A DNA stretch of 64,000 nt, taken from contig JAILDV010000046.1 in assembly GCA_024688885.1 (NCBI GenBank), positions 1 through 64,000 on the forward strand, in the 5' to 3' direction. Shown here one piece after another: positions 8,938 to 64,000 of the stretch. A program made the translations under genes and the position numbers. The DNA comes from Bacteroidaceae bacterium. GTDB taxonomy: Bacteria; Bacteroidota; Bacteroidia; Bacteroidales; Bacteroidaceae. Numbering within the stretch: the first letter of the stretch is position 1; every line of letters starts with the position of its first letter. Under the pieces are notes generated by a model. That model saw only the letters and a program-made list of their open reading frames with translations. It had not been told where the DNA came from and searched no databases.

Positions 8938-9930
8938 TCACTTCTTCTCCACCTTCCTCGCAGCCAGTGTCAGCATGTCGTAGATGTACGAGTCTTCGTT
9001 GATGTCGAAACATTCAGCCACTTGATAAAGGCGGTTGGCGACTATCTTGCGCTCGTCTTCGTCCAGAGGGGCATTCTTGCAGAGGTCGAGGATGATGCCT
9101 GCTGCCACCACCATATCCTCCTTTGATTGCTTGTTGGCCTTGTCCATCATCTGCTGCGTCAGGAGTCCAAAGAAGCGGTGCCAGTCGGTGTTGCTCAGAT
9201 TGGAAACTCCACGTTGCAAAGCCAAAGCCATCCAAGAATCCTTATTCCCATCGAAGGGGATGTCTTCCTTTTGATGTCCGAATGCATCCTCCAACTGCTT
9301 CTTAAAGATATCCTTGCCCAGAACGTCGGGCATCGACACCGTAGCGAAATGGTTCGGAGGCCCAACTGATGCAATGCCATGTGCGGTTTTGGGCTGCTGG
9401 CCATAGACATAGACGAGCTTTACCGTATAGACCTCAGGGTTGTCGGCGTTGCTCCACTCGGCAGCATAACAGGTGCGATAGCCTTTGTGCTTCTTGTCGT
9501 TGAAGTTGGCAATGTAGTAGGTGCTGTTCTTCATGCTTCCGATGAGGACAGCGTCGTCTTCATCCCTCCAGATGCTCCACATGCGACGCAGACCGAGGTC
9601 GTGGACGAGCGCTGAATCAAGTTCGAGTTTTTCGCCGCTCATCTCTTCCTCAAACATCGATGTTTTGCTGGCCTCGTTCCTGAAAGCATCCCTCAGTGTT
9701 TCGGACACGGAATGCTGATACCTTCTCTCCACCTTGACAGTGATGACTTTGCTCTCGATGGCAATGCCGTTCGTGTCCACTTTTTCGGTATTATGCTCTC
9801 CTACTTTGGTGACGCCCGCAAGTTCGTCGGTCACTTCCTGAAACGCCTTCTTGATTTGCTCCTGTGCCGAGGCGGTTGGCACGATGGCCATCAGGACGAT
9901 GGCTGCGATGATAATACTCTTTGCTTTCAT
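8938..9930 (-). CDS. secreted protein of unknown function, third gene of an ECF sigma operon
   Basis: 330 residues with a signal peptide (MKAKSIIIAAIVLMAIVPTASAQ). The mature protein is alpha/beta with many charged residues and no motif I recognise. It starts 18 bp after the anti-sigma-like gene, so it is probably made from the same transcript and could be an output or a modulator of the sigma pathway. The middle region (EDDAVLIGSMKNSTYYIANF...) looks like a beta-rich domain and the C-terminal 100 residues are helical. Function unknown. Confidence 0.75.
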   Translation of the reverse strand: MKAKSIIIAAIVLMAIVPTASAQEQIKKAFQEVTDELAGVTKVGEHNTEKVDTNGIAIESKVITVKVERRYQHSVSETLRDAFRNEASKTSMFEEEMSGEKLELDSALVHDLGLRRMWSIWRDEDDAVLIGSMKNSTYYIANFNDKKHKGYRTCYAAEWSNADNPEVYTVKLVYVYGQQPKTAHGIASVGPPNHFATVSMPDVLGKDIFKKQLEDAFGHQKEDIPFDGNKDSWMALALQRGVSNLSNTDWHRFFGLLTQQMMDKANKQSKEDMVVAAGIILDLCKNAPLDEDERKIVANRLYQVAECFDINEDSYIYDMLTLAARKVEKK

Positions 9931-9948: not shown

Positions 9949-10611
9949 TTATATCTCGATGATTGTTTTGGTCTCAATCACTTCATAGTCGCCCGCCTCG
10001 TTGGTCACGAGCACCACATTGGCAGGTTGCGGCGTGGCGTTGAAGGTGGCTTGGATGATGTGGTTGCGCATCTCCTGCTCCTCGCGCAGGATGGTTTCCT
10101 CGCACTCGCTCAGCATCTGAATGGCAATCGCCACGTTCCGTTCCGAACGCCAGATGCCGTTGCCGAGCGTGTCGGAAATCTCAGTCGAGCGTGCCCGATT
10201 GCTTGATTGGTGCGCCCCGATTGCTCGATTGGTGCGCCCCGATGGCTTAGTTGGTGCGCCCCGATTGCTTAGTCGGTGCGCCCCGATGGCTTGATTGGTG
10301 CGCCCCGATTGCCTGATTGGTGCGCCCCGATTGCTCAATTGGGTGCACTCAGTTTTATTATCGGGTGCACTCAGTTTGGCAATCGAGTGGGGAGCCTTAT
10401 TGAACTCATAGTACACTCCTACGCCTATCGCTATCAACAGACAGGCAGCGGCAGCAGACATCCAGCCCCACCAATGTCTCCGATGGCTGGCAGCAGGCTT
10501 CGTGTCCATCCGCTCCCTCAGACGTTCTGTGAAGTCCGTAGGCAGTGACGGCGTATTGGCATATCGGCGTCGCAGCGCTTCGCGCAAGTCGGTGTCTTTA
10601 TTTGTTTTCAT
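9949..10611 (-). CDS. single-pass anti-sigma-factor-like protein with a 22-bp repeat region
   Basis: 220 residues. A charged cytoplasmic N-terminus of about 46 residues, one membrane segment (MSAAAACLLIAIGVGVYY, about 50-67) and a periplasmic C-terminus. Position directly after an ECF sigma factor, with ATGA start/stop overlap, marks it as the likely anti-sigma factor, although no ZAS zinc motif is visible. Residues about 88-138 are coded by a 22-bp tandem repeat read successively in three frames, giving a 22-residue repeat (GAPIRQSGRTNQ... then GAPTKPSGRTNR...). The repeat is hydrophilic and probably disordered. Confidence 0.75.
   Translation of the reverse strand: MKTNKDTDLREALRRRYANTPSLPTDFTERLRERMDTKPAASHRRHWWGWMSAAAACLLIAIGVGVYYEFNKAPHSIAKLSAPDNKTECTQLSNRGAPIRQSGRTNQAIGAHRLSNRGAPTKPSGRTNRAIGAHQSSNRARSTEISDTLGNGIWRSERNVAIAIQMLSECEETILREEQEMRNHIIQATFNATPQPANVVLVTNEAGDYEVIETKTIIEI
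10196..10350. repeat. 22-bp tandem repeat inside the anti-sigma-like gene
   Basis: Six full units (start positions 10196, 10218, 10240, 10262, 10284, 10306) and one diverged unit share the core GATTGGTGCGCCCCGAT. Two diverged copies of GGGTGCACTCAGTTT follow. The unit length is not a multiple of three, yet the minus-strand reading frame stays open throughout. Confidence 0.92.
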
Positions 10612-11183
10612 GTCTTTTGAAGTTGCTTGTGGAGTTTCTTACGTATTCGGTAGAGGCGGTTGGCCAATGCGTGAGGGCTTGCATCCATGATGAACGAGCA
10701 TTCGTCCAGCGGACGCTCTTCGAAGTAGTGGAGCATGAGCAGCAGACGTTCGTCGGGCGGTAGCTGGTCTATCAACTCTTCCAATCGGCTGATTCGCTCC
10801 TCATTGCCTGTCGAAAGCTCCGCCTCCAGCTGCTCGTCATTGATGTCCGTCTGCCACACCTCGGAATCTTCTATCGAAACAAGCAGTGGACGACGACGTT
10901 TCATGAAGTCGAGCGTCAGGCGGTAGGCAATGCGACAAAGCCATGTGCCGAGCGATGCCCGTTGCGGGTCGTAACTGTCCATGCAGCGGAATGCACGGAG
11001 AAACGTGTCCTGCGTCAGTTCCTCAGCATCCATCACGTCGCCCACGAGTCTCACAACCATGCCAAAGACCTCCAGCCCGTAGCGACCCACCATCAGGTCT
11101 TGCCCCTTGCGTTGGTCACTCATCACGGCATCCACTATCTGTTTGTCTGTCTTCACTATCGATGAACTTTTCTTCATTTTCAC
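10608..11183 (-). CDS. ECF-type RNA polymerase sigma factor
   Basis: 191 residues. Region 2 includes EELTQDTFLRAFRCMDSYDP and TWLCRIAYRLTLDFMKRRR. Region 4 includes LIDQLPPDERLLLMLHYFEERPLDE followed by a helix-turn-helix ending RLYRIRKKLHKQL. It directs RNA polymerase to a small regulon, probably including its own operon. The start could be Met 1 or Met 3. It overlaps the anti-sigma-like gene by four bases (ATGA), typical for sigma/anti-sigma pairs. Confidence 0.92.
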   Translation of the reverse strand: MKMKKSSSIVKTDKQIVDAVMSDQRKGQDLMVGRYGLEVFGMVVRLVGDVMDAEELTQDTFLRAFRCMDSYDPQRASLGTWLCRIAYRLTLDFMKRRRPLLVSIEDSEVWQTDINDEQLEAELSTGNEERISRLEELIDQLPPDERLLLMLHYFEERPLDECSFIMDASPHALANRLYRIRKKLHKQLQKT

Positions 11184-11525: not shown

Positions 11526-14500
11526 ATTTCTAAAAATCCCCTCCATCGCTTCCAGCACACTCAATCCTCCTTCCATAGTGCTGACGTTCTTGATGAGCAG
11601 CGATTTCCTCTCTCCATCTCTCAATGTGCATCCTCTTCCGTGACTGCCCACATAGTTGAGCACCTTCTCGAAGGCGCGGCTTTGGAAGTAGGCGTCTTCG
11701 AGGGCGAAATAGAGAATCATGCGTCCCATCTTGAGCACCACTTTCTCGATACCGAGACGTTGAGCCGCCCACTTGATGGGCATAACGGTGAGGAGCGATT
11801 CGCCCACGGATGGTATTTGTCCGAAGCGGTCGATGAGGCGCTTCTTGTAGTCTTCCAATTGCTTAGGCGAGGTGAGGGAGTCGAGTTCGCGGTAGAGACT
11901 CATGCGCTCACCGCTGTTGGGCACATACTCTTCAGGGAAGAAACCCTGGATGTCGCTTTCGATGTTGGTTTCCGTCACAAACTTCTCACCGCTGATTCTG
12001 CCCTCTTCATCCTTGTCCTCTTCGGCAAAGAGTTCGGTGAACTCGTTTTCCTTGAGTTCTTCTACAGCCTCATTCAGTATCTTCTGGTAGGTTTCATAGC
12101 CGAGGTCGGTGATGAAGCCGCTCTGTTCTGCTCCTAACATGTTTCCTGCACCACGGATGTCAAGGTCTTGCATGGCGATGTGGATGCCGCTGCCGAGGTC
12201 GCTGAAGTTCTCCACGGCTTGCAGACGGCGACGGGTTACATCGTTCAGGGCTGCGAGTGGGGGAGCGATGAGGTAGCAGAACGCTTTCTTGTTGCCTCGT
12301 CCCACACGTCCACGCATCTGGTGAATGTCGGAGAGCCCGTAGTTCTGTGCGCTGTTGATGATGATGGTGTTGGCGTTGGGCACGTCGATGCCGTTCTCCA
12401 CAATCGTCGTGGAGAGCATCACGTCGTAGTCGTAGTTCATGAAGTCGAGAATGATTTTCTCCAAGTCCTGCGGATTCATTTGCCCATGACCTACACACAC
12501 GCGCGCATCAGGTACATATTTGTGTATCATCTCCTCCAATTCGCGGAGGTTGCTGATTTTGTTGTTCACGATAAACACCTGTCCGTTGCGGCTCATCTCG
12601 AAGTTGATGGCTTCGGCAAAGATTTCGGGCGAGAAGGTGTGTATCTCTGTCTGAATCGGGTAGCGGTTGGGTGGGGGAGTCTGGATGATGGACAGGTCTC
12701 TGGCTCCTAATAGCGAGAACTGCAACGTGCGTGGAATAGGAGTGGCAGTCATCGTGAGGGTGTCCACATTCACTTTCATGGCTCTCAACTTCTCTTTCGT
12801 TGATACGCCAAACTTCTGTTCCTCGTCGATGATGAGCAATCCCAAGTCCTTGAACTGCACTTGTTTGCCAATCAGTTTGTGGGTGCCGATGATGATGTCC
12901 ACCTTTCCTTCCTTGAGGTCGTCCAACACCTCTTTGGTTTCTTTGGCGGTACGGGCACGGGTAAGGTATTCCACCCTGACGGGAAACTCTTTCAGACGTG
13001 ATGAGAAGGTCTGGTAGTGCTGATATGCCAACACCGTTGTGGGCACCATCACCGCCACCTGTTTGCCGTCTGTGGCTGCCTTGAATGCTGCACGTATTGC
13101 CACTTCCGTCTTGCCGAAGCCTACATCGCCGCACACCAGCCTGTCCATCGGACGCGGCTTCTCCATGTCTGCCTTCACGTCCTGAGTGGCTTTCAGTTGG
13201 TCGGGTGTGTCCTCATACACGAAACTTGCTTCCAATTCCTGTTGCAGGTAACTGTCCTTGCTGTAGGCAAACCCTTGCTCTTTCAGTCGGGCAGCATAGA
13301 GTTTGATGAGGTCACGGGCGATGTCCTTCACCTTGCTCTTCACCCGTTCCTTCATGCGTTCCCAAGCACCGCCACCAATCTTGTTCAGACGGGGAGCCTC
13401 ACCCTTCTTGCCTTTATATTTGGAGATTTTATGCAGGGAGTGGATGGACACATACACCGTGTCTTCATGCAGGTATGTAATCTTGATCATCTCCTGCATC
13501 ACATTGCCCTGTGGCACTCTCACCAGTCCTCCGAACCTTCCCACGCCGTGGTCTATATGCACCACATAATCGCCAATCTCAAACTGCTGTATCTCCTTCA
13601 GCGTCAGTGCCACCTTACCTCGATGTGCCTTGTCGCTCTTGAGGTTATATTTGTGGAAGCGGTCAAAAATTTGGTGGTCGGTGAAGAAGCACAGCTTCAG
13701 CGTATGGTCAATGAATCCCTCATGAATGGCTTTGTTGACGGGGATGATGACCGAATTAGGAATTAGGAATGAGGAATGAGGAATTGAATGTTCTGCTGAT
13801 GAATGAGTGTTAATTCCTAATTGGCTACGCCGAGCTAAAGGTTCCTCATTCCTCATTCCTAATTCCTCAAGAATGCTCTGCAGACGTGCAATCTGTTTCT
13901 CGCTGTCGGCAAAGATGCAAATCTTGTAGCCTTCGTCCATCAGTCGGTGAAACTCCTGATTCACTAACTCAAAGTTCTTGTGGAAAAGAGGTTGCGGAGA
14001 GGTGTTGAAGTGTACGGACTTCTCATCCGTTGATGTGCCTTGTTTCACTTCCAAATGCCTGAACTGCACTACCTGCTTCAGGAATGTCTCCTCATTGACG
14101 ACGAGACTTTCCCAATCAGCAAGGTCTCCCTCCCCATCACGGGGGAGGGTTGGGGAGAGGGTCTTCGCCTGACTCGAAAAGCCCTCATCGTGTATCTGCG
14201 CAATTTTGTCACACACAAACGTGAAGTCCTGTGTGATAATCAGCGTGTTCTTGGGCAAGAACTCCAAGAAGGAGATGTATTCAGCATTGTCCTTCTTGAT
14301 GTCTGGCACTATCGTCATCGTCTCCACCTTTCCCTGACTCAGCTGGCTCTGTACGTCAAACGTTCTGATGCTGTCCACTTCGTCGCCGAAGAAGTCGATT
14401 CGGTATGGCATGTCCGATGAGAATGAATACACATCCACGATGCTTCCTCTGATGGCAAACTGCCCAGGCTCATACACATAGTCCGTATGTTCAAAACCCA

Positions 14501-15083
14501 ACTCGAAGATGCGCTTCTCCAATTTGCTGATGTCAAACTCATCGCCCACCTTCACCGTCAACGTGTTTTCATCTAGTTCCTTCTTCGACACCACCCGTTC
14601 CGCCAAAGCATCGGGGTAGGTGACGATCAAAAGACCCTCTCTGTCCTGTCGGACATCTCCCCCATGATGGGGAGAGCCATCCGGCGTGTTTGTTATCGGA
14701 AAAGACTCCGCATGGCTTCCCTCCCCATGATGGGGGAGGGTCAGGGAGAGGGTCTGCATCCTCAGAATCTCATTACCTGCATCCTTCTGGTTGTATTTGA
14801 TGGCACGTTTATATGACGAAGGGAAGAACAGCACCCTTTCGTCACCCATCATCTGTGTCAAGTCGTGGTATAGGTAGCCCGCATCGTCCATATCGTTCAT
14901 CACCACCAGCATGTTGGGGTTGTTGCCCCTTCCGTTCATGATGGATGCCAACAACAGAGCAACTGACGAACCGCATAGTCCGTCAGCCCTCAATTCTTTA
15001 GCCTTGCCAGTTCTGATGCGCTTGGCAAGTTCTCTCACCTCCTCCGAGGAGGCAAGAGCAGAAAGTACCTTACTTGTTTCCAA
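11523..15083 (-). CDS. mfd: transcription-repair coupling factor
   Basis: 1186 residues. Removes RNA polymerase stalled at DNA lesions and recruits the UvrABC system. Order: UvrB-like N-terminal part, RNA polymerase interaction domain (FEIGDYVVHIDHGVGRFGG), SF2 helicase with Walker A CGDVGFGKTEV, DEEQ box IIDEEQKFGV, TATPIPRTLQFS and GRVGRG, then the TRCF C-terminal domain. The N-terminal third is lengthened by foreign segments at about residues 110-150 and 307-326 (palindromic elements) and 404-443 (a 7-bp repeat array). All keep the frame, and they lie in regions where relatives have loops. A 47-aa gene and a further palindrome lie just upstream. Confidence 0.95.
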   Translation of the reverse strand: METSKVLSALASSEEVRELAKRIRTGKAKELRADGLCGSSVALLLASIMNGRGNNPNMLVVMNDMDDAGYLYHDLTQMMGDERVLFFPSSYKRAIKYNQKDAGNEILRMQTLSLTLPHHGEGSHAESFPITNTPDGSPHHGGDVRQDREGLLIVTYPDALAERVVSKKELDENTLTVKVGDEFDISKLEKRIFELGFEHTDYVYEPGQFAIRGSIVDVYSFSSDMPYRIDFFGDEVDSIRTFDVQSQLSQGKVETMTIVPDIKKDNAEYISFLEFLPKNTLIITQDFTFVCDKIAQIHDEGFSSQAKTLSPTLPRDGEGDLADWESLVVNEETFLKQVVQFRHLEVKQGTSTDEKSVHFNTSPQPLFHKNFELVNQEFHRLMDEGYKICIFADSEKQIARLQSILEELGMRNEEPLARRSQLGINTHSSAEHSIPHSSFLIPNSVIIPVNKAIHEGFIDHTLKLCFFTDHQIFDRFHKYNLKSDKAHRGKVALTLKEIQQFEIGDYVVHIDHGVGRFGGLVRVPQGNVMQEMIKITYLHEDTVYVSIHSLHKISKYKGKKGEAPRLNKIGGGAWERMKERVKSKVKDIARDLIKLYAARLKEQGFAYSKDSYLQQELEASFVYEDTPDQLKATQDVKADMEKPRPMDRLVCGDVGFGKTEVAIRAAFKAATDGKQVAVMVPTTVLAYQHYQTFSSRLKEFPVRVEYLTRARTAKETKEVLDDLKEGKVDIIIGTHKLIGKQVQFKDLGLLIIDEEQKFGVSTKEKLRAMKVNVDTLTMTATPIPRTLQFSLLGARDLSIIQTPPPNRYPIQTEIHTFSPEIFAEAINFEMSRNGQVFIVNNKISNLRELEEMIHKYVPDARVCVGHGQMNPQDLEKIILDFMNYDYDVMLSTTIVENGIDVPNANTIIINSAQNYGLSDIHQMRGRVGRGNKKAFCYLIAPPLAALNDVTRRRLQAVENFSDLGSGIHIAMQDLDIRGAGNMLGAEQSGFITDLGYETYQKILNEAVEELKENEFTELFAEEDKDEEGRISGEKFVTETNIESDIQGFFPEEYVPNSGERMSLYRELDSLTSPKQLEDYKKRLIDRFGQIPSVGESLLTVMPIKWAAQRLGIEKVVLKMGRMILYFALEDAYFQSRAFEKVLNYVGSHGRGCTLRDGERKSLLIKNVSTMEGGLSVLEAMEGIFRN
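13753..13869. repeat. 7-bp repeat inverted array inserted in mfd
   Basis: GAATTAG/GAATGAG heptamers (13753-13790) face complementary CTCATTC/CTAATTC heptamers (13838-13869) around a spacer that contains GGCTACGCCGAGC. The same heptamer occurs between genes at 27420. The stretch is translated in frame within Mfd as a low-complexity loop. Confidence 0.8.
14106..14164 (-). repeat. in-frame palindromic element (type B, half copy) in mfd
   Basis: Read with the gene it begins AGACCCTCTCCCCAACC, contains the palindrome CCTCCCCCGTGATGGGGAGG, and codes for KTLSPTLPRDGEGDLADW. Only the left half of the full type B element is present. Confidence 0.75.
14632..14755 (-). repeat. in-frame palindromic element (type B, full copy) in mfd
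   Basis: 124 bp bounded by AGACCCTCT and AGAGGGTCT, with two inner palindromes around CCCCATCATGGGG. Read with the gene it codes for QTLSLTLPHHGEGSHAESF on the left side. It is absent in principle from the UvrB-like core of Mfd, so it interrupts an otherwise conserved gene without a frameshift. Confidence 0.8.
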
Positions 15084-15111: not shown

Positions 15112-15162
15112 GCCGCATGGCTTCCCTCCCCATTACGGGGGAGGGTCGGGGCGAGGGTCTTC
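15112..15162 (-). repeat. palindromic element (type B, half copy) between mfd and its upstream gene
   Basis: The minus strand reads AGACCCTCGCCCCGACCC, then palindrome, then GGAAGCCATGCGG. The last motif also follows the palindrome in the copy inside mfd. It lies in the 80-bp gap before mfd, showing that the family is not restricted to coding DNA. Confidence 0.75.
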
Positions 15163-24187: not shown

Positions 24188-24270
24188 CTTCCACTCGCGC
24201 ATGTTTGTGTTCCCCACTCGTGAACGTAAGTGTTCCCCACTCGCGAACGTAAGTGTCCCTCACAAACGAG
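24188..24270. repeat. 23-bp-period tandem array A
   Basis: Two near-identical 23-bp units (24210-24232 and 24233-24255) with the core CCCCACTCGTGAACGTAAG are flanked by diverged partial units. The array fills the gap between two convergent genes and forms the last codons of comEC. Confidence 0.8.
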
Positions 24271-47291: not shown

Positions 47292-48079
47292 AATAAAGTA
47301 TATTTAATTCTAATTTTTGACATATTTACTTTTCCTTTCAAATTCATATTGTCTTCCAAAATCCTTTTCTGGATTATAGTTGCACCTTTGTGCATAAAAG
47401 GAAACAACGTTACAGTTTTTATTGAAGCATGAGGGCTTATTTTAAATTAACACCAATTTTTCTTTCATTTTCATGCTTTCTTCTGCTGCAAATTCTTTAT
47501 TATGTTGAAAATAAAATCGAAATTCACGTTTGTCCGTGTAATACTTCTCTTTAGAGTTGATCACACATGCAAAGATACAGTCATTTATACGCTTTACCAA
47601 ATAATATTACACAAAAACTTATTTTTTCTCTCAATATTAACCTTTTTTGTTGCATTTTTCTCTTTCACATGCTCTTCCTTCTCTCTTCCACACTCGTATT
47701 TACGTCCCTTTCGTGCTCATTTATATCACTCCTGCGTATTAAATTTGTAGTGTTGCCGTATCGCGTTTTATTTTGAAAGTTGCAAATTTATTTTTGAAAG
47801 TTTCAAATATTTTTTTGCAACTTTCAAATTATTTTTTCAAAGTTTCAAATTATATTCGATGTGGGCAAGACATAAAAATGGATGCGCAGGAGGCTTGTAA
47901 ATGGGTGTGGGGGAGCAGTTGAAAGGGGCGTGTCGAAGACATGAATAGGGGAGTGGAGGAGATGTTTTTTCATGTGTTAGTTTCGTTTTTTCCGTACCGT
48001 TGGCTTCGCCGAAGGTACTTGCGTTCGACAATAAAAGTGAAAAAAGGCTTTTTCCCTTTGTATTGTGCTCACTTATTCG
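47292..48079. other. 850-bp AT-rich intergenic region
   Basis: No convincing gene. The 82-residue plus-strand ORF at 47502 is Phe/Leu-rich low-complexity and looks like chance. The region holds a cluster of TTTGAAA palindromes (47772-47850) and the hairpin-like TTGGCTTCGCCGAAGG near 48000. Composition matches the AT-rich protease gene beside it, so both may have arrived together. Confidence 0.5.
47772..47851. repeat. TTTGAAA palindrome cluster
   Basis: TTTGAAAGTTGCAAA (47772-47786) and its exact reverse complement (47814-47828) flank TTTGAAAGTTTCAAA (47793-47807), itself palindromic. A further TCAAAGTTTCAAA follows. It may be a cruciform-forming element or a set of binding sites. Confidence 0.7.
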
Positions 48080-62782: not shown

Positions 62783-63801
62783 TGGTCAAGACAAATTCTT
62801 TGAAAGCGTGGTTTCTTGCAGCACGCCCCAAGACACTCACAGGAGCCATTGCTCCCGTTCTTGTCGGTGCTGCCTTTGCCTTTGCTTCCTCCAACTCCCA
62901 ACCCCCAACTTTCAACCCCCAACTCTCAACTTTCAACTTTCAACTTTCAACTTTCAACTTTCAACTCCTCCTCCTTCTTCTCTGTCTGCTGTTTGCCATC
63001 TTCATGCAGATTGATGCCAATTTCATCAACGACTATTTCGATTTCAAGAAAGGAACAGACCGTGAAGACCGTCTGGGACCCGAACGTGCCTGTGCACAAG
63101 GTTGGATAACGCCGCGTGCCATGCAATGGGGCATAGGAGTGATGACAGTCCTCTCCTGTCTGGTGGGACTTGCCATCCTGTTCATTCACATGCAGTGGGA
63201 GCTGCTCCTTGTGGGCATCTTATGTGTGGTCTTCTGTTTTCTCTACACCACAAAGCTTTCCTATCTCGGTTGGGGCGATGTGCTTGTGCTCATCTTTTTC
63301 GGATTTGTACCCGTGGTGTTTACCCACTATGTCATGACCGATGGTGGATGGAATGTTCCTCTGCTCATTGCCAGTCTTGCCATGGGACTTGCCACCGACA
63401 ACCTCCTGATGGTCAACAACTATCGTGACCGCAATCAAGACAGGGTGAGTGGCAAGCGCACCATCATCGTGCACATCATCGAGGCACAAATTCGCAAATA
63501 TGGTGATGAGGAAGGTCAGAAGAAAGCTAAAAACATTTGTCTCGACATCTATCTATGGATAGGCATTGCAGCCACGTTTCTCGCCTTCACCGCACTTTTC
63601 CTGTTCTCTCCAATCAGCATTCGGCATCCGTTGATGTTCCTCTACCTCATCCTCCACTTTCGTGCCTTCCAACAGCTCAAGACACTCGATGGGCGTGACC
63701 TCAACCAAGTGCTTGGCACCACAGCCCGCAACATCTTCCTTTTCGGTGTCCTCCTCGCCTTTGGAGTGCTGCTACATAGTGGCTTAGTTCTTTCGGAATA
63801 A
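62782..63801 (+). CDS. menA: 1,4-dihydroxy-2-naphthoate polyprenyltransferase
   Basis: 339 residues from ATG 62782, which overlaps the upstream stop by one base. The ORF-track start at 62761 lies inside the preceding gene. UbiA-type enzyme that attaches the prenyl chain in menaquinone synthesis at the membrane. N-terminal AWFLAARPKTLTGAIAPVLVG, the first Asp-rich motif ANFINDYFDFKKGTDREDR, and NNYRDRNQDRVSGKRT as the second. Residues about 37-62 (NSQPPTFNPQLSTFNFQ...) come from an 11-unit 7-bp repeat placed in a loop before the second membrane helix, and have no counterpart I know in the family. Confidence 0.92.
   Translation: MVKTNSLKAWFLAARPKTLTGAIAPVLVGAAFAFASSNSQPPTFNPQLSTFNFQLSTFNFQLLLLLLCLLFAIFMQIDANFINDYFDFKKGTDREDRLGPERACAQGWITPRAMQWGIGVMTVLSCLVGLAILFIHMQWELLLVGILCVVFCFLYTTKLSYLGWGDVLVLIFFGFVPVVFTHYVMTDGGWNVPLLIASLAMGLATDNLLMVNNYRDRNQDRVSGKRTIIVHIIEAQIRKYGDEEGQKKAKNICLDIYLWIGIAATFLAFTALFLFSPISIRHPLMFLYLILHFRAFQQLKTLDGRDLNQVLGTTARNIFLFGVLLAFGVLLHSGLVLSE
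62892..62968 (+). repeat. 11-unit 7-bp tandem repeat inside menA
   Basis: Eleven units in exact 7-bp phase, from CAACTCC through CAACCCC and CAACTCT to a run of CAACTTT, including five identical consecutive units (62927-62961). 77 bp is not divisible by three; a gain or loss of one unit would shift the menA frame. Confidence 0.93.
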
Positions 63802-63892
63802 GATTACTCACCTTTCATTCCTTCATTTCAGCGTAGCGCATTTCATTCTTTCATTTTCTCATTTTTTCATTCTTAAAACATACCCTTCGAGG

Positions 63893-64000
63893 ATAGCCCT
63901 TACACAGACTTGAGAATGCCCCTTAAGCAGAAGTGAGAATAGCCCTTAAGCACGAGCGAGTATAGCCTTGACACAGAATCGAGTATGTTAGTGACATCGA
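63893..64000. repeat. 23-bp-period tandem array C
   Basis: Four units with an exact 23-bp step (63893, 63916, 63939, 63962) and a partial fifth run to the window edge. Shared parts are ATAGCCCTTA and GAGCGAGT. It follows menA after a TTTCATTC-type short repeat (63811-63875). No gene is seen from 63802 to the edge. Confidence 0.8.

Follow-up and report, generated by a model that had tools for sequence, protein, structure and literature searches.

The patterns described here suggest that the 22-bp tandem array inside a putative anti-sigma factor gene of this Bacteroidaceae genome is, quite likely, a dispersed and fast-turnover minisatellite that the protein tolerates in a disordered and probably periplasmic linker, its reading frame being held by selection for the C-terminal module. 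If only frame-preserving net changes are retained, the locus would be frame-locked, not phase-variable. A non-triplet minisatellite inside a gene amounts to a natural experiment: units turn over between sister species and the frame is kept, so selection on the frame can be read from unit order. Literature searches found no publication on this 22-bp repeat.

We propose that the array represents one local instance of a 22-bp minisatellite dispersed in the ruminant-gut Bacteroidaceae/Prevotella-like lineage, and that it encodes a disordered tether joining the membrane helix to the folded C-terminal module. Units would be gained, lost and homogenised, presumably by slippage or unequal recombination, and selection for the C-terminal module would keep frame-preserving alleles only, with whole units changing in multiples of three (66 bp, 22 residues). 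What may vary is the tether, in its sequence and in its length.

The array and its host gene

Tandem Repeats Finder (TRF) reported a period-22 array at 10194-10342 of the window (the whole 64,000-nucleotide stretch analysed), with 6.8 copies of rather degenerate units (87% matches) and a score of 221, and a second, diverged period-22 stretch adjoining it at 10336-10389. On the coding (minus) strand there are six core GGGGCGCACC... units, and a diverged GAGTGCACCC unit lies at 10329-10350, which agrees with the six full units and a diverged one described in the first-pass annotation. Weaker 22-bp periodicity flanks the core on both sides, out to 10394 and 10175 (Table 1), and exact runs of 19-21 bp are present in the array at lags of 22-66. 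The lag-22 self-identity of the linker is 0.69, a value reached by 0 of 2000 shuffles; together with the TRF score, this shuffle test rules out a chance repeat. Periods near two helical turns recur over the window, and TRF found other arrays with periods of 21-23 bp and unrelated units at 24191-24263, 47767-47856, 62892-62967 and 63889-63967.

Table 1. Features of the array locus, in window coordinates.
Feature	Position	Strand	Basis
Third gene downstream, 330 aa, function not assigned by family match	8938..9930	-	ORF; conserved in relatives
Putative anti-sigma factor gene, 220 aa	9949..10611	-	ORF, orthologues, sigma pairing
Conserved C-terminal module DTLGNGIW...EEQEMRN...GDYEVIETK, residues 147-220	9952..10173	-	65-99% identity in 10 relatives; folded in model
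Linker, residues 72-147, predicted disordered	10171..10398	-	AlphaFold2 pLDDT <50
Diverged downstream unit GGGCACGCTCGACTGAGATTTC	10175..10196	-	Unit listing; identical unit type in G016
Core array: six 22-bp units, consensus GGGGCGCACCAATCAAGCAATC	10197..10328	-	TRF and unit listing
Three further units upstream, diverged (GAGTGCACCC type, plus a weaker one), 22-bp period kept	10329..10394	-	TRF, unit listing, lag identity
ECF sigma factor gene, stop overlapping anti-sigma gene start	10608..11183	-	Pfam Sigma70_r2 and Sigma70_r4_2

The host gene encodes a 220-aa protein laid out as an N-terminal region, a membrane helix, the repeat linker and the C-terminal module. Its ATG overlaps the stop codon of the ECF sigma factor gene (ATGA), and an ECF-like sigma ORF, recognised by reading translations, lies directly upstream in 10/10 relatives checked. 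This conserved pairing supports the anti-sigma assignment made in the first-pass annotation, which curated profiles back only weakly: no curated anti-sigma family and nothing in Pfam scored above cut-off, and the best curated profile, NF052375, reached 26 bits against a cut-off of 100. We therefore treat the product as a putative anti-sigma factor, on the basis of gene order and conserved sigma pairing. The third gene gave no family match in Pfam or the curated profiles.

An AlphaFold2 prediction built on nine orthologues gave a weak model overall (mean pLDDT 58.8, pTM 0.28). Helices were predicted at residues 5-18, 25-36 and 43-71, the last spanning the membrane segment, and the topology inferred for the protein places the linker probably in the periplasm. 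The C-terminal module was predicted as helices 149-155 and 157-192 plus two strands, with pLDDT of ~83-92 over residues 161-210, and in orthologue alignments it is the best conserved part of the protein. A fold search of the model against the PDB returned nothing at E <= 0.001, and no relative of solved structure was found with the C-terminal profile (best E 0.49). At loci L050-L053 the module is joined to different N-terminal regions. The module (alignment A2) also occurs beside different ECF-like sigma factors.

Reading frame within the array and among orthologues

Since 22 is not a multiple of three, neighbouring units are read in different frames and three-unit steps are frame-neutral, an arithmetic point that the first-pass annotation had right. 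Translation in the gene frame confirmed its reading of successive units, with three units giving 22-residue peptide repeats of the type SNRGAPIRQSGRTNQAIGAHR. Its statement that all frames are open did not hold for the real sequence. None of the three sense frames of the ideal unit contains a stop, as is also true of 47% of shuffled units; stop words occur in 3/7 real units at 10197-10350 (TGA, TAA and TAA, all off frame), and the whole window linker has 0 in-frame stops and 3 + 6 = 9 off-frame stops, 3 of them inside the array. Owing to these off-frame stops, many variants with one or two units gained or lost would end inside the repeat. We also considered a conserved function of the alternative frames and rejected it, as the off-frame stops differ among orthologues.

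We simulated alleles of the window gene and of eight relatives with one or two units added or removed. As had been predicted for such changes, the downstream part was removed: the C-terminal module was lost at every simulated position. Sample products with odd unit numbers were 106-137 aa long and often ended within the array. The simulated variants show that a change of one or two units shifts the frame, as expected of a phase-variable repeat.

We then turn to the orthologues, which came from species-representative genomes, mostly metagenome-assembled, with each species counted once. Counted in this way, a 22-bp-periodic linker occurs in eight genes (the window genome, G016, G044, G022, L048, L049, L051 and L052), with lag-22 identities of 0.48-0.70 in all eight, values that 0 of 2000 shuffles reached. 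In each of the eight, the reading frame runs uninterrupted from the start to the conserved C-terminal end, and stops summed over their linkers number 0 in frame versus 55 off frame. The four closest genes have distances of 84, 84, 84 and 106 aa from the transmembrane segment to the DTLG motif, and the L048 linker (243 nt) is as in the 84-aa class. Unit number is nearly constant between species in this set: linker lengths of the five closest orthologues differ by 0 or by exactly 66 bp (three units), G044 having three extra units and being otherwise intact. Length differences in the linkers of L049, L051 and L052 do not correspond to whole numbers of 22-bp units, yet these genes remain in frame. 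The G022 array is described a little better by a 66-bp higher-order repeat than by the 22-bp period (92% vs 88% matches). Three further orthologues (L050, L053 and L067) have ordinary, non-periodic linkers, which indicates that the repeat as such is not required. We rejected the notion of an element confined to one gene and species, given that the site is common to the orthologues and that related arrays occur between genes in other species.

Further support for a preserved frame comes from a profile of the C-terminal module (alignment A2) searched in 399 family genomes, a search independent of the upstream frame. All loci found (18/18) lie inside open frames of at least 200 aa. Thus, no frame-off allele was seen between species among the eight array-bearing orthologues or the 18 C-terminal loci. 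Under free drift, the chance of a full-length frame in all eight would be very roughly (1/3)^7, a figure that ignores relatedness and the way in which orthologues were ascertained; the orthologues are related and so do not represent eight independent trials. The in-frame state of all eight is unlikely under drift, which argues for purifying selection on the frame, a cause suggested here by comparison of species representatives.

The first-pass annotation had proposed that changes in copy number switch the sigma regulon on or off. As a contingency locus, the array would gain or lose one or two units in a small share of cells, throwing the anti-sigma gene out of frame, removing the C-terminal module and reversibly altering sigma activity. 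That every such change truncates the protein, and that units turn over between sister species, would suit this reading; the exact 19-21 bp runs could support slippage, and their degenerate setting (87% matches) should slow it. There is also a precedent in the mucA G5 repeat of Pseudomonas aeruginosa, where repeat-borne frameshifts in the periplasmic part of MucA switch on a regulon (PMC2781719). The two cases share a repeat within an anti-sigma gene (here a putative one) and frameshifts that remove part of a periplasmic region (here probably so), but the mucA repeat is a mononucleotide run giving selected loss-of-function mutants, whereas the array here is a minisatellite (PMC2781719). Against a switch stand the full-length, in-frame state of 8/8 array-bearing orthologues, the absence of frame-off alleles among the 18 C-terminal loci, length changes of 0 or 66 bp only in the five closest orthologues, and three close relatives without any linker repeat. 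Given no frame-broken allele among the species representatives, a phase switch is not supported, and we regard it as unlikely. Similarly doubtful, to us, is a latent version: within populations, slips of one or two units would cut the anti-sigma factor short, leaving the sigma factor released or locked in a few cells until the slip reverts, and the species representatives would always display the favoured full-length state. If frame-off alleles occurred in populations, the locus would be a sigma-factor switch with an unusually long unit.

Established repeat systems offer two further comparisons. The tetranucleotide genes of Haemophilus influenzae are simple-sequence contingency loci (PMC2651432). 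Our array resembles them in being a coding repeat with a non-triplet unit in which one- or two-unit changes shift the frame, and differs in its long, degenerate 22-bp unit, the lack of any frame-off allele found and a between-species length that is constant modulo 3 (PMC2651432). For Mycobacterium tuberculosis, most structural changes in the coding repeats of pe/ppe genes (17/25) were found to keep the frame, a bias that the authors put down to mechanism (PMC12817950). The array shares this in-frame bias of repeat-length changes (PMC12817950). Here, a 22-bp unit needs three-unit steps to keep the frame, making selection a simpler cause than mechanism (PMC12817950).

Unit turnover and related arrays in the genus

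Sequence identity between the window genome and G016 is ~97% across the sigma gene, the N-terminal part of the array gene and the third gene. Despite these near-identical flanks, the unit types of their arrays differ. With mild gap costs, the two arrays align as three matches, +3 units, one match, -3 units and three matches, an arrangement that gives way to the ungapped alignment (40 mismatches) at the heaviest gap costs tried. Among the unit alignments, the result was clear for this pair only. For G044 against the window genome, the best placement divides the net change of +3 units into +2 and +1 and hence does not demonstrate one 66-bp event.

Three-unit steps might also serve to adjust tether length and signal sensing, with selection acting on length itself. 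The three added units of the otherwise intact G044 gene and a spread of linkers from ~57 to 98 aa across orthologues would be consistent with such tuning. The same length is found in four of the five closest species, however, and neutrality explains the variation equally well; we consider tuning very unlikely.

Unit searches with a sequence-only model used a 36-bp unit alignment; the 44-bp version was gapped by MAFFT. The model found a single array in the window genome, the one in the anti-sigma gene, and related 22-bp arrays in other species of the genus, mostly at intergenic sites. Intergenic arrays were present in G016, G026, G006 and G012, with weaker ones elsewhere, as expected of a dispersed minisatellite. 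The G016 array lies between two genes resembling chromate-transporter halves and the G012 array between rimM and dxr, both named from translation; another lies upstream of a MAQLKLKIKKAG gene in G026 and of its relative in G006. Arrays of G026 and G016 that occupy different loci share 87% identity over ~127 bp, suggesting copying between loci.

Comparison of the same sites in sister species suggests that several kinds of satellite DNA are gained and lost at shared positions. The chromate-transporter site has 22-bp arrays in G016 (L108, 1575-1781) and G022 (L121), heptamer repeats (GAATTAG and TCAACTG) in the window genome (L123) and a short TTCAA-rich stretch in G044 (L122). At the rimM-dxr site, there is no spacer in the window genome and a different repeat in G016. 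Comparison by eye of occupied and empty sites showed no common flanking inverted repeat. In this respect the arrays seem to differ from BrickBuilt of Porphyromonas gingivalis, a minisatellite-containing MITE with leader and tail segments and terminal inverted repeats (PMC4596501). Dispersed minisatellite arrays in a Bacteroidales genome are common to both, but a leader and tail with terminal inverted repeats were not seen by eye here, and the array is coding (PMC4596501).

Some intergenic arrays stand just upstream of genes. The occurrence of the unit type outside genes would fit an element acting in DNA or RNA, in which quasi-palindromic 22-bp units (~two helical turns) serve as protein-binding sites or form folded structures in the transcript, coding being incidental. 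Such an element would hardly be expected to diverge freely between species within the gene while the frame is kept, to be lacking from several orthologues, or to be lost or replaced at intergenic sites, and we consider this reading very improbable.

Other repeats of the window genome are also translated. Its mfd gene, on the minus strand, has in-frame repeat-derived peptides at 14634-14753, 14106-14168 and 13746-13856. The gene carries two copies of a dispersed CCCTCCCC...GGGGAGGG palindrome together with a stretch of GAATTAG heptamers, and a third copy of the palindrome lies just upstream, at 15113-15158. Residues 114-147, which include a palindrome, and ~410-446, which coincide with the heptamer array, are skipped in alignments to mfd of three sister species. 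In those species, tblastn did not find mfd in the contig pieces nearby, and a whole-genome search located it on other contigs. The array in the anti-sigma gene suggests that, in these rumen Bacteroidaceae, protein linkers are made from the same kinds of satellite repeat as fill the spaces between genes. At ~1037-1200 of L049, the N-terminus of the orthologue has an extra HPSPSLRGRGRS-type stretch that resembles another translated dispersed repeat.
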